Source: Methanolinea sp.
GTDB lineage: Archaea; Halobacteriota; Methanomicrobia; Methanomicrobiales; Methanospirillaceae
DNA: 64,000 bases
Assembly: GCA_018263335.1 (NCBI GenBank)
Contig: JADFCY010000008.1
Span: 1-64,000, forward strand
Direction of reading: 5' to 3'
Made by a program: the position numbers and the translations under genes. Positions within the stretch are counted from its first letter, which is position 1; each line of letters opens with the position of its first letter. Shown here piece after piece: positions 15,893-25,678 of the stretch. The notes below the pieces were generated by a model that was not told where the DNA came from, made no database searches, and was given only the letters and a program-made list of their open reading frames with translations.

Positions 15893-16783
15893 ATGCCATC
15901 CGCCAGTTCCAGGAGTGCCAGGACCCCCACGATCAGGGTCGGCGTGCATGTCTCCATCGCCGGATCGATCGCGCTCGCGGTGACCCGGGCTGCAGAGGCA
16001 GGCTGCAACACATTCCAGATATTCTCCCGGAACCCGAGGGGATGGGGATACCGGGACCTCTCTATTGAGGATACGGCACAATTCAGGGAAGCCCTTTCAA
16101 ATTCCGGCATCTCCCCGGTCTTTGACCACATGCCCTACCTCCCGAACCTTGCCACTCCAAGGGAGGAGATATACGAGAAGTCGTGCGCGGCCCTTACCGC
16201 AGAACTCCTCCGGTGCGGCACCCTCGGCATCCCATTCCTCGTCACGCATCTTGGGCATCACCTCGGCGAGGGCATCGGGGGAGGGAAGACCCGGGTCATC
16301 CGGGCCGTCAACCTCGCACTGGGAGCCGCACCAAACGGCGTCATGCTCCTCCTCGAGAATACCGCCGGCGAGAAGAACGGGGTGGGGAGCACCTTTGAGG
16401 ATATCAGGGAGGTGATGGACGGGATCGAATTCCCCGAACGAACAGGCGTCTGCTTCGACACCTGCCATGCCTACGGCGCGGGGTACGACCTCCGCACGCC
16501 TGAGGGACTCGGCGAGACCCTGGACCGGCTCGACGAGGTCATCGGGCATGCACACGTCCGCCTCATCCACCTCAACGATTCAAAGGGGGACCTGGGAAGC
16601 GGCCTCGACCGGCACGAGCACATCGGCCTTGGGTCAATCGGGGAGGAAGCCTTCGCTCACATGCTTCAATTGGACTTCTTCAGGAAAAGGCCGCTCATCT
16701 GCGAGACCCCCGTCGACGGACGGAGGGATGACAGGGGCAATATCAGGAAGGTTTGGGAACTGGCGGGAGCGGAAGGAGACTAA
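15893..16783 (+). CDS. nfo: Endonuclease IV (AP endonuclease)
   Basis: A TIM-barrel metal enzyme that cleaves DNA at abasic sites in base-excision repair. The 296 residues include VHVSIAGSIALAV, NTFQIFSRNPRGW, LLLENTAGEKNG, GVCFDTCHAYGAGYD and LIHLNDSKGDLGSGLDRHEHIGLG, which supply the zinc ligands (His, Glu, Asp). The length fits the family. It has no operon partner; a rho-independent-like hairpin lies about 135 bp downstream. Confidence 0.93.
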   Translation: MPSASSRSARTPTIRVGVHVSIAGSIALAVTRAAEAGCNTFQIFSRNPRGWGYRDLSIEDTAQFREALSNSGISPVFDHMPYLPNLATPREEIYEKSCAALTAELLRCGTLGIPFLVTHLGHHLGEGIGGGKTRVIRAVNLALGAAPNGVMLLLENTAGEKNGVGSTFEDIREVMDGIEFPERTGVCFDTCHAYGAGYDLRTPEGLGETLDRLDEVIGHAHVRLIHLNDSKGDLGSGLDRHEHIGLGSIGEEAFAHMLQLDFFRKRPLICETPVDGRRDDRGNIRKVWELAGAEGD

Positions 16784-17071: not shown

Positions 17072-17305
17072 TTATGGCCTCCTCAGGCCCGCCTTCTCGG
17101 GCAGGCAATCAGGGACCATCGCGCCCTCGGAAGAACAATAGAACTCCGGTGTATGCGTCCTTTCTACCAGGTCTCCGAGCTGTTCTTCAAGCGCTCTCGT
17201 GAGCTCCAGGCACTTCGTCCCGGTCGCTCCCTTCACCGAGACTGCCACCTGGCCGTCCCTGCCAATTACTATCTCAAGTTCCTGCATATCCATTGTGATC
17301 GTCAC
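17072..17305 (-). CDS. DUF2997 small protein
   Basis: A 77-residue protein with the DUF2997 pattern: a beta-strand VIGRDGQVAVSVKGATGTKCLELT followed by a helix EEQLGDLVERTHTPEF. Families DUF2997 and DUF1257 (Ycf35) often accompany Ycf46-type AAA proteins in cyanobacteria, and here both occur in one cluster. It is the last gene, 1 bp after the Hsp70-like gene. Function unknown; the Cys in the TKCLEL segment is a conserved feature of the family as I know it. Confidence 0.75.
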   Translation of the reverse strand: MTITMDMQELEIVIGRDGQVAVSVKGATGTKCLELTRALEEQLGDLVERTHTPEFYCSSEGAMVPDCLPEKAGLRRP

Positions 17306-17306
17306 C

Positions 17307-18899
17307 TCATACCAGCCGTACCACCGGGCAATCCTTCATCACCACGTGGCCGCTCCGGGTGTCACAGGCAGTGACAAGAAGCCTCTTGTTCTCGTCAAGC
17401 GAGAAAGAGATCTCGAACCGGGACTCGTCCCGCATTGCCGGCGGGTGTGCGGGGATGAAGAAGGGGGCGTTCTCGTTCATCCAGAAGGCCTCCCTCCTCT
17501 CCCGCTCTTCGTCTGGGAGATCCACGAGCCGCACCCCTCCCCCGGGGTCGCTCACAAGCTCCCGCTGTGCCGCCGCGTCTCCTCCTTTCGCCTTTCCCAT
17601 CTCGTATATGGGAACACCCATCTGGGCCTGGCCATCGTAGGTTGCGCGTATGAGGAGGCGGGCCACGGGGCGCTTGCTGGGGTACGGGTCTCCCTGCCTG
17701 ACGAGCGTCCGGAACTCGTGAGTCCCTGTCCGCGAGTTCCAGAACCGCAGGGCATAGTCGTGCTGTACATGGTCGTCAAGGTCGATCCCGGCTGCACATG
17801 CTGCCGCCCCCCGGGCGACCGTCACGAGGGGGTGGTCATAGCGTATCTTCTCCCTCCCGAACCGGTGCTCAAGCGCCTTTTTGATGGCCGGGACCTGGCT
17901 GCATCCTCCCACCATGACGACGCCAGCGAGGTCCTCTTCTGAAAATCCCCGCGCGTATGCCCCCTGGAGCGCCCTCTGAATTGTGGCGTTCAGGCGGGGA
18001 AAGACCCCTCTCTTCTCAAGCAGCCCCACAAACTCGTCCCTCGTGTAGGGTGTCGAGAATTCCCGTCCTTCCCCCGAAATATGCCGGACGGAGATCTCAG
18101 TCTCATTCTCGAAAGAGAGCATCTCCTTTGCGCGCTCGCAGGCAGAGAGGAGGGGGCGGGAGAGCGCCTTTCCTTCCGGTCCACCAAAGGCATGCCAAAA
18201 TCTCTCGCGGATATCCTCAAAGATCCACTGGTCGATGCGCATCCCGCCGAGATCCTCCCCCGCTTTTCCAAGCACCCTGCAACGGCGGCCCTGGCCGCAC
18301 TCCCCCTCCTCGAGGCGGACCACCGAGACATCGAGGGTCCCGCCCCCCATGTCAAAGAGCATGAACACCTCCCCGGGCCTGAGGGCAAGGCCCGATGCCA
18401 CCGCAGCGGCGGTCGCCTCGTCCACGACCCGCACCCTTCCAATCCCCGCGGAACCGGCAAGAGAGATCACCCAGTCCTGGTAATGCTCAAATGACTCGAC
18501 TGGCACCGGAAAGACCGCCTCGATCTCCCCGTCGCCCGCCTCTGCCGGGAGTGTTGAGAGGACTGCCCCGAGGAAATCGGCACCCGCTTCCATGTAACTC
18601 CTGCTCCCGCCCGGGAGCGGCACCCTGACAGGGCTCCGCGTGGAGATGTAGTGCTTCATCCAGCGGACCGTTGCGGGGGAGTCAAGCAGGCCAAGGTCGT
18701 TTACCTGCTGCCCTATCCACCTCGTCCCGCCCTCCCCGTAATGGATGAGTGAAGGGATCTGCGCCATGCCCCCCTGGTCGTCCCTGCATTGCCGGGACCA
18801 CCCGGGGATCGCGAGCACCCGGGCAGAGCCAAGGGTTTCGTCCCAGCAGGCAAGCACCGTGTTGGAAGTGCCAAAATCCACCGCAACCCTACACGGCAT
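17307..18899 (-). CDS. Hsp70-family protein
   Basis: A 530-residue DnaK relative, shorter than the usual 610-640. The ATPase domain has VAVDFGTSNTVLACW (phosphate 1), LFDMGGGTLDVSVVRLE (phosphate 2) and VVMVGGCSQVPAIKKALE (adenosine). The C-terminal ~150 residues form a shortened beta-type substrate domain without the helical lid. It is not canonical DnaK: no dnaJ or grpE is near, and it is embedded in a WD40/AAA/Ycf35 cluster. The start overlaps the WD40 gene end by 11 bp. It may be a dedicated chaperone or a nucleotide switch for that system. Confidence 0.85.
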   Translation of the reverse strand: MPCRVAVDFGTSNTVLACWDETLGSARVLAIPGWSRQCRDDQGGMAQIPSLIHYGEGGTRWIGQQVNDLGLLDSPATVRWMKHYISTRSPVRVPLPGGSRSYMEAGADFLGAVLSTLPAEAGDGEIEAVFPVPVESFEHYQDWVISLAGSAGIGRVRVVDEATAAAVASGLALRPGEVFMLFDMGGGTLDVSVVRLEEGECGQGRRCRVLGKAGEDLGGMRIDQWIFEDIRERFWHAFGGPEGKALSRPLLSACERAKEMLSFENETEISVRHISGEGREFSTPYTRDEFVGLLEKRGVFPRLNATIQRALQGAYARGFSEEDLAGVVMVGGCSQVPAIKKALEHRFGREKIRYDHPLVTVARGAAACAAGIDLDDHVQHDYALRFWNSRTGTHEFRTLVRQGDPYPSKRPVARLLIRATYDGQAQMGVPIYEMGKAKGGDAAAQRELVSDPGGGVRLVDLPDEERERREAFWMNENAPFFIPAHPPAMRDESRFEISFSLDENKRLLVTACDTRSGHVVMKDCPVVRLV

Positions 18900-21741
18900 G
18901 GTGACTCACCCCGTTCCGGGTCACCCCGCTGATTTCCGGCTCCTCGACGATCTCAATGTCGTACGGTCCGGCAGGCATCCCCGATCCGCCATACGCGATG
19001 CTGTGGCGGAACTTTCCTGCAAGGAGCCGCTCGAGGAACTTCCACTGCCCGGCCTGCCCTGGAGCGAGCTCCCGCGTGATGCAGGACTGGACATACGCGA
19101 TATCCGCAGGGGTGGTCTCGCACATCGGCCTGGTCCAGGGGATCCCAAAAGTTCTGAGTGACCCGTCCCTGCCCGCAGCCGCCATCATGTGCAGGGATGG
19201 GAGCAGGCAGATGCCATTTCGGGCGTCGGCGCTTGCCACGCGGGTGCGGATGAGTCTGCCCCCGGGGAGCGAGAAGAGGGAGAGTGTTCCGCCATCGACT
19301 GCGCATGCGAGGAGACTTCCGTCGGGGTGCACCGAGAGTGAACGGACTCTCCCCGCGTGGCCCGGGATCGTCTTGAGGGGTTCGCCGGAGGGCATGCTCC
19401 ACAGCCTGACGGTCCGGTCCCAGCTCCCGGTTGCAAGGACCCTCCCGTCCCCCGTGATCCCGAGGCACGAGACCACGTGCGAATGCCCTTTCATGCGGGC
19501 ATGCATCTGCCCTGACTCAAGGTCCCACGCGATTGCGGTCCGGTCATGGGACCCGCTCACCAGGAACGGGCCGGAAGGCGAGAACGCGAGCGAGGTGACC
19601 GGGCTCTCGTGTCCCACGAGCGAGGTGATCGGCTCTCCTGCGGGAAGTGACCAGAGCCGGACCGAGCCGTCCCATCCTCCGCTTGCAAGGAGAGTTCCGT
19701 CCCGGTTGATTGCAAGGGCACGGACCCCGCCCACGTGCCCGTCGAGGGTTGCGCGTAGCGAGCCTGTAACAAGGTCCCAGAGCGAGACCCTGCCATCATC
19801 ATCCCCGCACACGGCCATGGTTCCCGAAGGGGTGAGTGCGAGGGACTCGATCCTCCCGCAAAAGAGGTTGAGGGTATGCACCAGTTCTCGTGTCCCTGTC
19901 TCCCATACCGTGAGCACGCCGCCCTCGCACCCGCAGGCGATGAGTTCTCCTCCCGGGGTTGAGGCAAGGCAGTGGATCGGTGTGCCGGGCCCCCGCATGA
20001 TCGTCTGCAGCTCACCGGAAGAAAGCGCCCACAGTTTTGCAGTCCCATCCCACCCGGCACTTGTCACCCGCGTCCCCGCCCTGTCGACTTCGAGGAGCCG
20101 GACCATTCCATCGTGGGCCTTTTTCACCTGGACCCTCTCTTTTTCCGGGAGGGACCATGTGTGGAGGGAGCCGTCTCGGCACCCCGCAATGATGAAGTCT
20201 GCTTCAGGGTGGAGTGCAAGCGACGTGATCCCCTGCCCCGGGACTTCAAGGCGGTTCACCACTTCTCCCGAGATGAGCGAGACCAGGACGGCAGTGTGGT
20301 CATCTGTGGCAAGCGCAGCGAAATTGCCGCCCGGAACAGCGCACCATGCGATGAACCGGCGTGGAGTGGTCGGCACGAGGGTGCGGAGCGTGCCGTCCAA
20401 AGAATTCCAGGAACGGAATGTCCCCTTCTCGTCGATCCCTGCCAGGATCGCCCCGCCGCAGCAGAAGACGAGGCCCCGGATGGCATCCCCGGTCCCCGCG
20501 ATCTCGATGTACTGCCCTCCATTTCTCCATATTCCTGCAGTCCCATCCCTGCAGCCGGAAGCAATCATCTCACCGTGGGCTGCAACGGCCGTGACCGCTC
20601 CGCGATGGACACTCCTCCGCTGCTCGCCGCTGCAGTCCGGCCAGTTCCATGAGCAGACAGACCCGTCACTCCCTCCCGAGCACAGTGTCTCGCCCCCTGG
20701 AGCGAAGGCAACCGAGGTGACGGGTGCGCCATGAGCATGCAGCGTTCGGATGTGGGCGCCGCCCCCGATTTCCACGATCCTGATTGACCCGTCCCCTGCC
20801 CCGATTGCGAGGGCACGTCCATCGGGACTGCATGCGATCGCCGTGGCGCTTCCGCCCGCAGGTCTGCCGGAAGAGAGGAGTACACCTTTGGGGAGGGACC
20901 ACTGGCACAGGGTGCCGCCGCAGCTCAGGGTCGCAAGGTGCGCTCCATCAGGAGACAATACGGCGATATCGATCCTTCCGGCCGGACCCGTGAGTTCGCC
21001 TGAAGCAGGCTGCGGCGGGTCTGGATATTCCCACCTCTCCGGGGCCAGGGCGAGGAGATCCTTCCAGAGCAGGAGGTCCCCCTCCGGTGGCTTCCACCCG
21101 GACAGACGGAGGACCTGCACCGCCTCGACCACTCTCTCGATCGGTGCGAGGAAGAGGAGCGCATAGATCTCATCCCATTGACTCTCCCGCCGGCACCCTT
21201 CCAGGTGGGCTCCCCAGTCTTCAGGTGACCACCCTCCGGCCTCGGGACGGCGCGCGAGGGCACAACAGAGGCCGACCATCCCTCTCTCCCGGGCAGCAGC
21301 GAGCGCCCTGGCTCGCACATGGGGCAGAGCACCGGTGAGTGCCTCTGTCAGGAGCGGATGACTCTCGAGGGGGTCGAGCTCCTGCCATGCCTCTGCCTGC
21401 CCGGAGAGGAAATAAAAGAGCGCCTGCTTCTCCCTGCTGCGGGGGCGGTATCCCTGTTCCAGTGCGATGCGTGTGAGGCAGGGGTCCCCGTCCACGATTA
21501 CGCGGTCGCAGAGCGCGTCGATCGCCTCGTGCGAAACGAGGGAAGTGAGACACTCCCTGGCCAATCTCCTCACTTCAGGGTATGGTGATTCGGCCAGCGC
21601 ACGGCAGAGGGCATGGACGGCTCTTCGGTCTCCGCCCCTGGCAGCGGCTGCGAGCTGCATTGCCGCAGACGACCTCGCAAACCTCCCGAAAAGGGGTGCG
21701 CGGCATGAGATCCCCCCCAGCATCCGGGCCATTGAGGGCAT
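18889..21741 (-). CDS. HEAT-like/WD40 double beta-propeller protein
   Basis: A 950-residue protein. Residues 1-260 look helical and HEAT-like (EVRRLARECLTSLV, VRARALAAARERG). From about residue 270, some 14-15 WD40 repeats follow, each ending in motifs such as DGSVRLWSLP, DRTVRLWSMP or DGRVSLWDLV, enough for two seven-bladed propellers. About 110 residues after the last blade are unique. I start at ATG 21741, with GGTGA seven bases upstream; a start at 21780 would add 13 residues and overlap the AAA gene. It is likely the scaffold of the cluster. Confidence 0.85.
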   Translation of the reverse strand: MPSMARMLGGISCRAPLFGRFARSSAAMQLAAAARGGDRRAVHALCRALAESPYPEVRRLARECLTSLVSHEAIDALCDRVIVDGDPCLTRIALEQGYRPRSREKQALFYFLSGQAEAWQELDPLESHPLLTEALTGALPHVRARALAAARERGMVGLCCALARRPEAGGWSPEDWGAHLEGCRRESQWDEIYALLFLAPIERVVEAVQVLRLSGWKPPEGDLLLWKDLLALAPERWEYPDPPQPASGELTGPAGRIDIAVLSPDGAHLATLSCGGTLCQWSLPKGVLLSSGRPAGGSATAIACSPDGRALAIGAGDGSIRIVEIGGGAHIRTLHAHGAPVTSVAFAPGGETLCSGGSDGSVCSWNWPDCSGEQRRSVHRGAVTAVAAHGEMIASGCRDGTAGIWRNGGQYIEIAGTGDAIRGLVFCCGGAILAGIDEKGTFRSWNSLDGTLRTLVPTTPRRFIAWCAVPGGNFAALATDDHTAVLVSLISGEVVNRLEVPGQGITSLALHPEADFIIAGCRDGSLHTWSLPEKERVQVKKAHDGMVRLLEVDRAGTRVTSAGWDGTAKLWALSSGELQTIMRGPGTPIHCLASTPGGELIACGCEGGVLTVWETGTRELVHTLNLFCGRIESLALTPSGTMAVCGDDDGRVSLWDLVTGSLRATLDGHVGGVRALAINRDGTLLASGGWDGSVRLWSLPAGEPITSLVGHESPVTSLAFSPSGPFLVSGSHDRTAIAWDLESGQMHARMKGHSHVVSCLGITGDGRVLATGSWDRTVRLWSMPSGEPLKTIPGHAGRVRSLSVHPDGSLLACAVDGGTLSLFSLPGGRLIRTRVASADARNGICLLPSLHMMAAAGRDGSLRTFGIPWTRPMCETTPADIAYVQSCITRELAPGQAGQWKFLERLLAGKFRHSIAYGGSGMPAGPYDIEIVEEPEISGVTRNGVSHHAV

Positions 21742-21748
21742 GAATGAT

Positions 21749-23317
21749 TCACCGCTCGCCGGGAGAGAGAACCGGTTCAAGGCGTATCGAACCCCCCGGG
21801 ACTCCGGCAGGAGACGATGGCGGGGATGCCGAAAGGGCCCTGCCCTCGGTCAGCCACGCCCGGAGTCCGCCGATGATCTCCTTCTGGGAGATCGAGAGCG
21901 GCACCTGTGCACCCAGCGCGGCAAGGATGTCTCCGGTGCAAACCCGCCGCATCTCCTGGTTGAACGCATGGTACATGGCATCGATGACAGTCTGCTCGAT
22001 CTCGGCACCCACGTATCCCTCAGACGCCCTTGCAAGGTGATCCAGGTCGAAATCATCCGGAAGAAGCCCCCTCCTCCGCAGGTGGACCGAGAAGATCTCC
22101 CTGCGCTCCGCGACAGAGGGGAGGTCGAGGAAGAACACCTCGTCAAACCGACCCTTGCGGAGGAGCTCGGGGGGGAGTGCAGAGATGTCGTTTGCAGTGG
22201 CCACCACGAAACAGGGAGAGGTCTTGTCCTGCATCCAGGTGAGGATGCTCGCAAATACCCGCTGGCTGGTCCCCGAGTCCCCGTTTCCAAACGAGAAAGC
22301 CTTCTCCATCTCGTCGATCCAGAGGATGCAGGGAGAGATGGTCTCGGCGAGCGCAAGGGCGCGGCGCGTCCGCTCCTCCGACTCCCCCACATAACTCCCA
22401 AAGAGCGCTCCCACGTCGAGACGGAGCAGCGGGAGCCTCCACATCCCGGCAATCATCTTGGCCGTGAGGCTCTTTCCTGTCCCGGGAATTCCTATCAGCG
22501 CGATACCCTTGGGGGAAGGCAGTCCGTATTCCCTCGCCTCGCGTGAAAAGGCCCGCTCCCTGAGGCGGAGCCACTCCTTGAGCACCGCGAGGCCTCCCAC
22601 GTTCTCCGCGGTCTCTGTGGCGCTGTAGAACTCGAGTGCCTCGCTCTGGGAGAGGATGTCCTTCTTCTCCGAGACGACGGCGTCGATGTCGCGGTCATCG
22701 AGCCGCCCGTGACGGACGATCGCCTTCGCAAACGACCTGCATGCCTGGTTGAGCGTCATCCCGAGCGCGGCCTGTATCAACTTCTCGCGACCGAGGGGAG
22801 TGAGCGAATCGCCGACCCCGCTCCCCCTCAGCAGCCGGTCGAGCTCCTGCTCAAGCTCCCTTGCAGACGGCGGCGGCACGTGGAGCACCACTGCATCGTC
22901 GCGTATCTCGTCAGGCACCCTCAAGGAAGGGGTGACCACCACCATCGTCCTCCGGGTAAACCGCAACTTCTGGGCAAGGTTCCGGAGCCTTCGTTTTACA
23001 CCGGGATTTCCCCAGAACTCGTGGAAGTCCTTGAGTACGATGACGGCCGCCTCGTCGGTCTTCTCGATCTCTTCAAGGGCAACGAGCGGGTCTCTCGCAG
23101 GAGATCCCCTGCCTGCCCCACATCCTGGCCCCGAGAACCCTTCTGCAATGTCCCAGGCCAAAAAAGGTCTTTTGGGAGAGAAACGGCTGCATACCTCCTG
23201 CAGCATGCGCATCGCCCTCTCCTCCTCCGGGGTATGCAGGATGAGGAGCGTGATGCGTGCACGGAGGCAGAGGTCTATCTGGAATGGGATATCCTGCTCT
23301 CCGCCGAGGGGACTCAT
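21749..23317 (-). CDS. Ycf46-like AAA ATPase
   Basis: A 522-residue AAA protein. The N-terminal domain (TPEEERAMRMLQEV, FLAWDIAEGF) is characteristic of Ycf46, a plastid and cyanobacterial family. The AAA module has Walker A GIPGTGKS (276-283), Walker B ILWIDEMEKA (331-340), sensor 1 ATAND (373-377) and arginine finger region LLRKGRFDE. No protease motif. I start at ATG 23317, overlapping the DUF1257 stop by ATGA; a longer reading frame upstream is low-complexity and lies in the DUF1257 gene. Probably a protein-remodelling motor. Confidence 0.87.
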   Translation of the reverse strand: MSPLGGEQDIPFQIDLCLRARITLLILHTPEEERAMRMLQEVCSRFSPKRPFLAWDIAEGFSGPGCGAGRGSPARDPLVALEEIEKTDEAAVIVLKDFHEFWGNPGVKRRLRNLAQKLRFTRRTMVVVTPSLRVPDEIRDDAVVLHVPPPSARELEQELDRLLRGSGVGDSLTPLGREKLIQAALGMTLNQACRSFAKAIVRHGRLDDRDIDAVVSEKKDILSQSEALEFYSATETAENVGGLAVLKEWLRLRERAFSREAREYGLPSPKGIALIGIPGTGKSLTAKMIAGMWRLPLLRLDVGALFGSYVGESEERTRRALALAETISPCILWIDEMEKAFSFGNGDSGTSQRVFASILTWMQDKTSPCFVVATANDISALPPELLRKGRFDEVFFLDLPSVAERREIFSVHLRRRGLLPDDFDLDHLARASEGYVGAEIEQTVIDAMYHAFNQEMRRVCTGDILAALGAQVPLSISQKEIIGGLRAWLTEGRALSASPPSSPAGVPGGSIRLEPVLSPGER

Positions 23318-23709
23318 GCCCACCTCCTGACCACGATGCGGATACTGCCGTCCTCCTGCTTCACCTCTTCGACCATGGTGTAGCCCTCCCTCACGGCCTG
23401 TTCGTGCACCATCCTCCTTGCGTATTCCTGCTGGAGGCGTGGATAGTCCCTGCGCAATCTCTCGAGGACTTTCCTGTCCGCGCCCTTCACCCCCCACGAG
23501 TCTGCAAGGAGGTCGTAGCACCCGTCGGCGTTCTGGACAAACCCTACGCCGAACCCATCCCTTCCTGCAACCGCGAGGTCGACCTGCTGCACGCCGTGGT
23601 ATCCCCTGACGTATCCCCCGCACTCGACCTGGTAGCCCATCTCCTCAAGGCACTGTGCAAGGACTGATGAGTCCCTGAAGGCCGTCTTCACCCGGGAAAA
23701 ATGCGACAT
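23314..23709 (-). CDS. DUF1257 protein (Ycf35-like)
   Basis: A 131-residue protein starting MSHFSRVKTAFRD, the recognised opening of the DUF1257/Ycf35 family, with QVDLAVAGRDGFGVGF and a C-terminal strand GSIRIVVRRW. Ycf35 is encoded in some algal plastids and in cyanobacteria; its biochemical role is not established. It is coupled to the AAA gene through ATGA and follows the radical SAM gene by 3 bp. Confidence 0.82.
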   Translation of the reverse strand: MSHFSRVKTAFRDSSVLAQCLEEMGYQVECGGYVRGYHGVQQVDLAVAGRDGFGVGFVQNADGCYDLLADSWGVKGADRKVLERLRRDYPRLQQEYARRMVHEQAVREGYTMVEEVKQEDGSIRIVVRRWA

Positions 23710-23712
23710 GGG

Positions 23713-24297
23713 TCAGGCACACCTCCGCCCGCAGGAGAGAATGATCCTCTCCGGGAACCCGGTGGTGGTCACTTCGCCCCCGCGTCCGATGGTAAACTCG
23801 ACACCGGTCCCCTCCTCTCCTCTTCCATGACCAGGCGCGATCCTACCCGAGAGCGGGATCATCTCCTGGTTTGCGGAGGCGCAGAGCGAGGACTGGGTGC
23901 GGCATTCACGGACGAAGGGCCCTGCGACGAGGAGGTCGGTCTCCTCAAGAAGCGCCTTCCAGTCCTTTCTGCGGCTTGACAGGAGTGTCTCTGCCGGGTA
24001 CCCGCTGAACGTGACAACTGACCCCCCCGACTCGCGGATCATCCTCCCGAGAGCGGCAAGGGGGGCTGCCTGGCAGAACGGCTCACCGCCAGAGAACGTC
24101 ACTCCCGCTATCCCGGGGACGGCGAGGATGCGTGCTGCCAGGTCATCCTCAGTGACGAGCCACTTTTTCGCAAATGACCACAGGTCCCGGTTGAAGCAGC
24201 CCTGGCACCTGAGGGGGCAGCCCTGGACCCATACTACCGCCCGGAGGCCGGGGCCGTTCACCCCTGACCGCTCGAGAAACCCTGCACAATTGATCAT
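23713..24297 (-). CDS. NrdG-like radical SAM protein of the Ycf35/Ycf46 cluster
   Basis: A 194-residue radical SAM protein with QGCPLRCQGCFNRDLW (CxxxCxxC cluster) and VTFSGGEPFCQAAPL (GGEP motif), resembling activating enzymes such as NrdG. No anaerobic ribonucleotide reductase gene is adjacent, so its target is likely another protein or substrate of the cluster. I start at ATG 24297, with GGGGTG upstream; the reading frame extends to 24462 without homology. First gene of the six-gene cluster. Confidence 0.82.
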   Translation of the reverse strand: MINCAGFLERSGVNGPGLRAVVWVQGCPLRCQGCFNRDLWSFAKKWLVTEDDLAARILAVPGIAGVTFSGGEPFCQAAPLAALGRMIRESGGSVVTFSGYPAETLLSSRRKDWKALLEETDLLVAGPFVRECRTQSSLCASANQEMIPLSGRIAPGHGRGEEGTGVEFTIGRGGEVTTTGFPERIILSCGRRCA

Positions 24298-24670: not shown

Positions 24671-25678
24671 GTGAAAGCCACTTTTGACGGGAGGTGGGTA
24701 TGGGTTGGATCTGATGGCCGGGCACTCTACGACCAGAGCGGCTATGGCCGGCCCGAGAAGGACGGAATAAAGCTTGCGCCCGAGGAGGCGCTGTACCTCG
24801 TCCACCGGGGACGGCTCGACGTTGCAGGGCATCCTTTCGACCGGTTCCTGGCGGTCTGTGCGGAGAAGCCCAATTTCCTGCGGAGTTACCTCGTGTACCG
24901 GGATATAAGGGAGAGGGGATACGTCATACAGACCGGGCCGCACGATTTCCGTGTCTTCAGGAGGGGACAGAGGCCCGGCACGGGCCAGTCCCAGTACATG
25001 GTCCGGGTCATCTCCGAGAGAGACATGATCGACTTCTCACGCCTCGTAAGAGAGGCAACCGCCTCGCTCAACCTCAGGAAGCAGCACGTCCTCGCGGTGG
25101 TCGACGACGAGAACGAACTGACCTACTACGAGGTGAAGATGCCCACGCTCCCGCGGATTGATCATGAGGCAGCCGAAGGGAACTTCAGGGGGGAACTTGT
25201 CGGGAAGTACGCAATCGTCCGCGCTGCCGGACCCATGGCTGCAATCCCGGCCACATTCGGGATGCAGCTTGACCCGGAGCGGCTGGTGCTTGCCCCCCTC
25301 GAGATCCTCAACCTGATGCATTCCGGCCGGCTCACCCTTTACGGCAACGGCGAGCCCATAGACCCCGGGGAGTACCACCGGATGGCAGAGGAGTCTGACC
25401 CCGAGTTCCCTGTGAAGGTGGCAGTCTACGACGATCTGAGGTCCCGCGGCTTCGTCCCGAGGACCGGTTACAAGTTCGGCCACCATTTCCGCGTCTATTC
25501 AGGGAAAAAAGTCCATTCAGAGATGCTGGTCCAGGCTCTCCCGGCAGGGGCGGCCCTCCCGATGAGCGCCATCTCGAGATCCGTCCGCCTGGCTCACAGT
25601 GTGAAAAAGAAGATGTTGTTCGGATGCGAACATACACAAGGAATCCAGTATGTGGAATTTGCCCGGATAAAACTGTGA
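24671..25678 (+). CDS. endA: tRNA-splicing endonuclease
   Basis: It cuts introns out of tRNA at bulge-helix-bulge sites. At 335 residues it is the fused, two-unit type: an N-terminal half resembling a degenerate unit and a C-terminal catalytic unit. The triad lies in TGYKFGHHFRVY (Tyr, His) and SVKKKMLFG (Lys). The start is GTG 24671; the ATG at 24659 is out because its frame stops at once. It heads a run of tRNA-related genes and is followed 11 bp later by trpS. Confidence 0.93.
   Translation: MKATFDGRWVWVGSDGRALYDQSGYGRPEKDGIKLAPEEALYLVHRGRLDVAGHPFDRFLAVCAEKPNFLRSYLVYRDIRERGYVIQTGPHDFRVFRRGQRPGTGQSQYMVRVISERDMIDFSRLVREATASLNLRKQHVLAVVDDENELTYYEVKMPTLPRIDHEAAEGNFRGELVGKYAIVRAAGPMAAIPATFGMQLDPERLVLAPLEILNLMHSGRLTLYGNGEPIDPGEYHRMAEESDPEFPVKVAVYDDLRSRGFVPRTGYKFGHHFRVYSGKKVHSEMLVQALPAGAALPMSAISRSVRLAHSVKKKMLFGCEHTQGIQYVEFARIKL

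Follow-up and report, generated by a model that had tools for sequence, protein, structure and literature searches.

The window analysed here, a 64,000-nucleotide stretch of Methanolinea sp. (assembly GCA_018263335.1, contig JADFCY010000008.1, positions 1 to 64,000), contains six adjacent genes on the minus strand between 17072 and 24297, which together are named as the cassette. In gene order, it starts with an NrdG-like radical S-adenosylmethionine (rSAM)/4Fe-4S single-cluster protein of 194 amino acids (aa) (23713..24297; Pfam PF13353, Fer4_12, 1.1e-30), followed by a DUF1257 protein of 131 aa (23314..23709; PF06868, 4.9e-19), an AAA ATPase of 522 aa (21749..23317; PF00004, 1.2e-29), a 950 aa protein with a HEAT-like N-terminus and WD40 repeats (18889..21741; Pfam WD40, 2.7e-83), an Hsp70 of 530 aa (17307..18899; Pfam HSP70, 5.9e-34), and a DUF2997 protein of 77 aa (17072..17305; PF11211, 2.6e-17). 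The initial annotation had placed six adjacent genes on one strand here, and the Pfam matches confirmed each family. The successive junctions are a 3 bp gap, a 4 bp overlap, a 7 bp gap, an 11 bp overlap, and a 1 bp gap. The HEAT/WD40 gene was read from an ATG, with a TTG at 21780 as a possible alternative start; the HEAT reading of its N-terminus was made by eye, and there was no Pfam HEAT match among the families shown. The DUF1257 and DUF2997 proteins scored 68.9 and 62.8 bits against Pfam cut-offs of 22.2 and 24.1, respectively.

The occurrence of the cassette in related archaea was examined, and DUF1257 was found in 35 of 199 genomes of the order, all within the window's own family (Methanoregulaceae-type), and in 18 of 394 genomes of the phylum sample, again confined to this family. 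The family was placed by named matches of the global scan described below (Methanoregula, Methanolinea, and Methanoregulaceae). Of the 35 genomes, 34 also carried DUF2997, the remaining one being cut by a contig end; beyond the family, DUF2997 was seen in just two genomes of the order, both incomplete. The gene order was identical in all 35 carriers. The six genes lay on a single contig in 32 of them, with the rSAM gene cut by the contig start in one (L064) and a few genes split, and the other three (L047, L059, and L065) reached a contig end with the visible genes keeping the same order. A split cassette gene was noticed in two carriers, Hsp70 in L038 and AAA in L046, reflecting either assembly error or early decay.

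The cassette adjoined endA-trpS-pheS in 31 of the 35 carriers, with a TIM-barrel gene on the opposite side in many. In the window, these neighbours outside the cassette are endA, encoding a tRNA-intron endonuclease and assigned by Pfam and synteny (24671..25678, plus strand), followed by trpS and pheS at the right border, and a xylose-isomerase-like TIM-barrel gene assigned by synteny (15893..16783, plus strand), which bounds the site on the left in most carriers. When 20 relatives without the cassette were inspected, the TIM-barrel gene and endA were only 79–511 bp apart in 11 of them, and no remnant of the cassette was found in these 11 empty sites. Furthermore, the distances among the cassette proteins followed those of EndA (r 0.79–0.91). 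Because the site is shared, empty sites exist, and the distances track EndA, these observations point to ancient vertical inheritance with losses of the whole unit and not to a mobile island. All six genes were under purifying selection among close relatives, with ratios of nonsynonymous to synonymous substitution rates (dN/dS) of 0.06–0.33. The AAA protein was slow (median p-distance 0.30, PheS 0.35), and the WD40 protein and Hsp70 were fast (0.71 and 0.66, respectively). Since the order is kept in 35 of 35 carriers and every gene falls in this dN/dS range, the linkage is not due to chance. Absence of linkage in other genomes had been named in the initial annotation as the finding that would speak against a common system; the same six genes were instead co-inherited in the archaeal relatives and also recurred together in bacteria. 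The six genes form a genuine, conserved, co-inherited unit of known parts.

A global scan was carried out with the DUF1257 alignment against 84,980 genomes, and the neighbourhoods of the best 80 of 574 matches were analysed. Within these 80 matches, the genes for AAA, HEAT/WD40, Hsp70, DUF1257, DUF2997, and rSAM were adjacent in Levilinea, Ornatilinea, Anaerolineales, and other Chloroflexota, and incomplete sets occurred in Planctomycetota, Verrucomicrobiota, Myxococcota/Desulfobacterota, Obscuribacterales, and Pseudanabaena. Thus, the expectation of an archaeal speciality did not hold, the same gene set being present in bacteria of several phyla, although DUF1257 is rare among Chloroflexota (5 of 350 genomes). 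The Levilinea, Ornatilinea, and Anaerolineales loci (L083, L084, L093, L139, L179, and L180) contain the same six families on one strand as the archaeal cassette, and their AAA proteins are ∼60% identical to the archaeal one, whereas their gene order is different, two WD40 genes are usual, and a GrpE gene is joined to some. The archaeal genomes tested for GrpE all carried it, with or without the cassette. Two further arrangements were noticed: an SprT-like protein adjoining a WD40 protein and a cassette-type AAA in a Chloroflexota genome (L181, G693), and an OLD/SMC-like ATP-binding protein between DUF1257 and DUF2997 on a Pseudanabaena plasmid (L071, 8430–9494), with no rSAM gene seen nearby. 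The search for constant and variable partners, as suggested in the initial annotation, separated AAA, DUF1257, and DUF2997 as the constant parts from rSAM, Hsp70/GrpE, and HEAT/WD40 as additions.

In the AAA tree, the archaeal copies formed a single clade (100/100) that grouped beside the bacterial cassette AAAs (100/98), and both the cyanobacterial Ycf46 and the Hodarchaeota copies fell outside this group. The AAA protein is therefore of SpoVK/Ycf46 type but lies outside the Ycf46 branch, and its earlier reading as an orthologue of the plastid and cyanobacterial Ycf46 had to be dropped. The simplest reading of this topology would be a single transfer from bacteria to the archaeal family, its direction being inferred from a midpoint-rooted tree with long branches.

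The AAA protein has an N-terminal part without Walker A, followed by an intact AAA domain (GIPGTGKS, WIDE, TAN, and GRFD), and among solved structures it is closest to NVL and VCP/Cdc48. The Walker A/B, sensor, and arginine-finger motifs were invariant in 35 of 35 archaeal carriers. The window's Hsp70 consists of an ATPase domain with intact ATP motifs and a region like the β part of the substrate-binding domain (SBD-β). The phosphate-2 motif DxGGGT was kept in eight carriers (the window, L041, L044, L049, L052, L054, L060, and L063), and an ATP motif was altered in ∼24 of 32 scorable archaeal relatives with the gene still in place. The α-helical lid was missing from all the aligned cassette Hsp70s, whose complete copies of ∼511–540 aa end after the SBD-β-like region; the shortened substrate domain seen earlier was thus borne out. 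Among the archaeal and bacterial copies sampled, many residues of this C-terminal region were invariant. It had been proposed that AAA and Hsp70 both supply ATP-driven steps. This stood for AAA, with its motifs intact in every complete copy, and failed for Hsp70, since most archaeal carriers have an eroded nucleotide site. Because the AAA motifs are invariant while the Hsp70 ATP motif has been lost in most archaeal copies, AAA appears to be the conserved motor. It is unlikely that Hsp70 must generally hydrolyse ATP, and a docking or client-binding role is more likely for it. When residual rate covariation was measured after correcting for species distances, the WD40 protein gave the highest values, with Hsp70 (0.66–0.72) and with DUF1257 (0.66–0.70), which is suggestive of a hub. 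In the rSAM protein of the window, CX3CX2C and SGGEP were intact, and these motifs were kept in all carriers except one copy cut by a contig end; by its CX3CX2C and GGE motifs, it would qualify as a radical SAM enzyme.

The alignments showed an invariant Met-Ser-His at the N-terminus of DUF1257 (M1-S2-H3) and one invariant cysteine in DUF2997, which in most settings is an obligate companion of DUF1257. Profile comparison found the two families unrelated. The AlphaFold2 model of DUF1257 had a mean predicted local distance difference test (pLDDT) score of 89.8 and gave no match with E < 0.3 against PDB folds; a search of viral models yielded no more than two probable matches, both of unnamed function. 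For DUF2997, the model was poor (pLDDT 61). By eye only, the C-terminal hairpin of the rSAM protein was noticed to be possibly similar to DUF2997.

The DUF pair also occurs in smaller modules. DUF2997 was located directly before DUF1257 in 75 of 80 marine viral contigs (L191–L270), and no AAA gene was found in the examined stretches of the contigs carrying the pair. In phage P-SSM2, the pair is located just upstream of gp43, which encodes the DNA polymerase. In Prochlorococcus (L115, 8892–10762), a HEAT-like protein precedes DUF2997 and DUF1257 and a 4Fe-4S ferredoxin follows them in the same row, an arrangement that recalls the HEAT, pair, and iron–sulfur (Fe-S) parts of the cassette. The DUF1257-DUF2997-AAA triad was observed in Hodarchaeota, Nostocaceae, and Manganitrophus plasmids; in one Hodarchaeota locus (L184, 9821–16081), the next genes encode a calcineurin-like phosphoesterase and an SMC-like ATPase, which together resemble SbcCD. 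On the Treponema succinifaciens plasmid pTRESU01 (L075, 8001–8408), a DUF1257 protein is encoded within a contractile-injection/phage-tail-like operon, with neither DUF2997 nor a Ycf46-type AAA adjacent and an AAA gene only far away among the annotated features. In cyanobacteria, a short DUF1257 gene lies directly downstream of the Ycf46 gene. The full cassette is these smaller modules with Fe-S/rSAM, Hsp70, and WD40 proteins added.

These results together led us to favour, tentatively, an Fe-S- or redox-linked AAA protein-remodelling machine built on a WD40 hub and probably working under oxidative, iron, or metal stress. In such a machine, a Cdc48/NVL-like AAA hexamer would be the only obligatory motor, the DUF1257-DUF2997 pair would be its adaptor or substrate-delivery module, and the HEAT/WD40 hub would hold the DUF pair and the lidless Hsp70. 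The Hsp70 may present or bind clients through its SBD-β-like region with ATP no longer needed in many species. The rSAM/4Fe-4S protein could perform a step that depends on redox state or radicals, in which it would sense oxygen or iron stress or else repair or modify the client, and remodelling would thereby be coupled to the state of an Fe-S or radical-type client. The constant gene order, the all-or-none presence, the empty sites, the bacterial gene sets, the invariant AAA motifs, and the slow change of AAA beside the fast WD40 and Hsp70 argue for this machine, as does the recurrence of an Fe-S protein beside the DUF pair (rSAM in archaea and bacteria, ferredoxin in Prochlorococcus L115, and Fed7 in Synechocystis). 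Other points weigh against it. The rSAM, Hsp70, or WD40 gene is missing from the sets of some relatives. Hints on function derive from individual genes with relatives in cyanobacteria, where AAA belongs to another clade and no rSAM protein is involved. Lastly, the flanking EndA and TIM-barrel proteins, which have no known functional link, reach a residual correlation of 0.75 under the lighter correction. Because of this last pair, the covariation test discriminates poorly; the scaffold role first ascribed to the WD40 protein is therefore consistent with its correlations, which are the strongest with Hsp70 and DUF1257, yet leans on a weak method. The metalloenzyme repair or stress role also put forward earlier is possible and is favoured by the cyanobacterial data on related genes (PMC4284462, PMC8875361, and PMC7496141). 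With more reserve, we suggest that the machine may be shared across domains, AAA and the DUF pair being coupled to rSAM and to an Hsp70 turned into a nucleotide-dead scaffold in most archaeal carriers, and that Ycf35/Ycf46 and the phage pair may be its reduced versions.

The rSAM protein could alternatively install a radical-based modification on the DUF2997 cysteine or the DUF1257 Met-Ser-His, with AAA, Hsp70, and WD40 maturing, loading, or recycling the product. The adjacency of rSAM to DUF1257 or DUF2997 in archaea and in most bacterial cassettes, the small size of DUF2997 with its invariant residue, the invariant start of DUF1257, and the intact rSAM motifs would suit such chemistry. We consider it unlikely, however: cyanobacteria, plasmids, Hodarchaeota, and phages have the pair or triad but no rSAM with it, so the modification cannot be the core function, and the rSAM gene has the highest dN/dS of the six (0.26–0.33).

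A defence role had also been raised, and an antiviral conflict system, in which WD40/HEAT proteins act as sensors and AAA/Hsp70 gate an effector, appeared improbable to us. The passages of PMC7159879 on NTPase conflict systems do list WD40, HEAT, Hsp70, GrpE, and rSAM parts; the cassette is patchy among relatives, DUF modules occur on plasmids and phages, and weak PADLOC similarities linked AAA to IetA and the repeat protein to a HEAT-ARM model. These PADLOC matches amounted to generic AAA/WD40 similarity and one marginal viperin match, however, and neither a match to a known defence model beyond generic domains nor location in a mobile or defence island was found. The vertical inheritance described above at one syntenic site with housekeeping neighbours, the slow evolution of AAA and DUF1257 under purifying selection, and the lack of a recognisable effector (nuclease, pore, or NADase) or hypervariable part in the cassette all speak against defence. 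Moreover, Ycf35/Ycf46 go unmentioned in PMC7159879, and none of those passages deals with DUF1257 or DUF2997.

The rSAM protein resembles NrdG most closely and is the sole small NrdG-type protein in the window's genome. This would suit a complex that activates class III ribonucleotide reductase (NrdD) or a different glycyl-radical enzyme, rSAM being the activase and AAA/Hsp70 the chaperones for re-activation. NrdD was nevertheless found in every one of the 20 genomes tested, of which 11 carry the cassette and 9 lack it, longer and weakly NrdG-like proteins occurred in both groups, and no glycyl-radical gene is linked. With 86 bits against the NrdG equivalog model TIGR02491 (cut-off 126) and NrdD independent of the cassette, the identification of rSAM as NrdG was rejected, and an NrdD activase role is very improbable. 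A loose operon of unrelated housekeeping genes joined by synteny alone is scarcely credible: the neighbours endA-trpS-pheS are also syntenic, but the same genes recur in different order across bacterial phyla and are present or lost all or none.

Plastids and cyanobacteria conserve Ycf35 and Ycf46, whose biochemical role is not settled, and no description of the cassette was found in the open-licence PubMed Central (PMC) literature. The cassette supplies them with defined bacterial and archaeal partners, separates the constant AAA, DUF1257, and DUF2997 from the added rSAM, Hsp70/GrpE, and HEAT/WD40, and hints at a dispensable Hsp70 ATPase. It would turn orphan genes into a complex that could be reconstituted and offers testable predictions for plastid and cyanophage biology.

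Among the known systems, the NTPase conflict systems described in PMC7159879 (Kaur et al. 2020) resemble the cassette in an NTPase chaperone, Hsp70/GrpE, β-propellers, and sometimes rSAM, but have MoxR-vWA or GTPase cores and variable effectors; the cassette has no vWA, MoxR, GTPase, or effector. The Cdc48/p97 and NVL machines are the closest solved AAA relatives and share the logic of a motor with adaptors. Unlike Cdc48/p97, the cassette AAA has no recognised Cdc48 N-domain or second intact AAA domain, and its adaptors would be DUF1257/DUF2997 instead of the ubiquitin type. The cyanobacterial and plastid Ycf46 (slr0374) belongs to a separate AAA clade, has a short DUF1257 without the C-terminal part, and lacks adjacent DUF2997, rSAM, Hsp70, or WD40 genes. 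Like the cassette AAA, it combines a degenerate N-terminus with an active AAA domain and has an adjacent DUF1257 gene; its operon, slr0373-slr0374-slr0376, is induced by stress, and when Ycf46 is lost the carbonic anhydrase activity of EcaB falls (PMC7496141). Among red-algal plastids, whether ycf35 and ycf46 are present correlates with habitat (PMC5940233). In Synechocystis, DUF2997 (ssl1263), ycf35 (DUF1257), and fed7 (sll0662) sit together (PMC4284462) and form a SigD-dependent group (PMC8875361). This cluster has a ferredoxin in place of rSAM and is without AAA, Hsp70, and WD40, but like the cassette it places the DUF pair beside an Fe-S protein. Fed7 binds a DnaJ-like protein, which provides a link to Hsp70, and is protective under oxidative, metal, and iron-limitation stress (PMC4284462).

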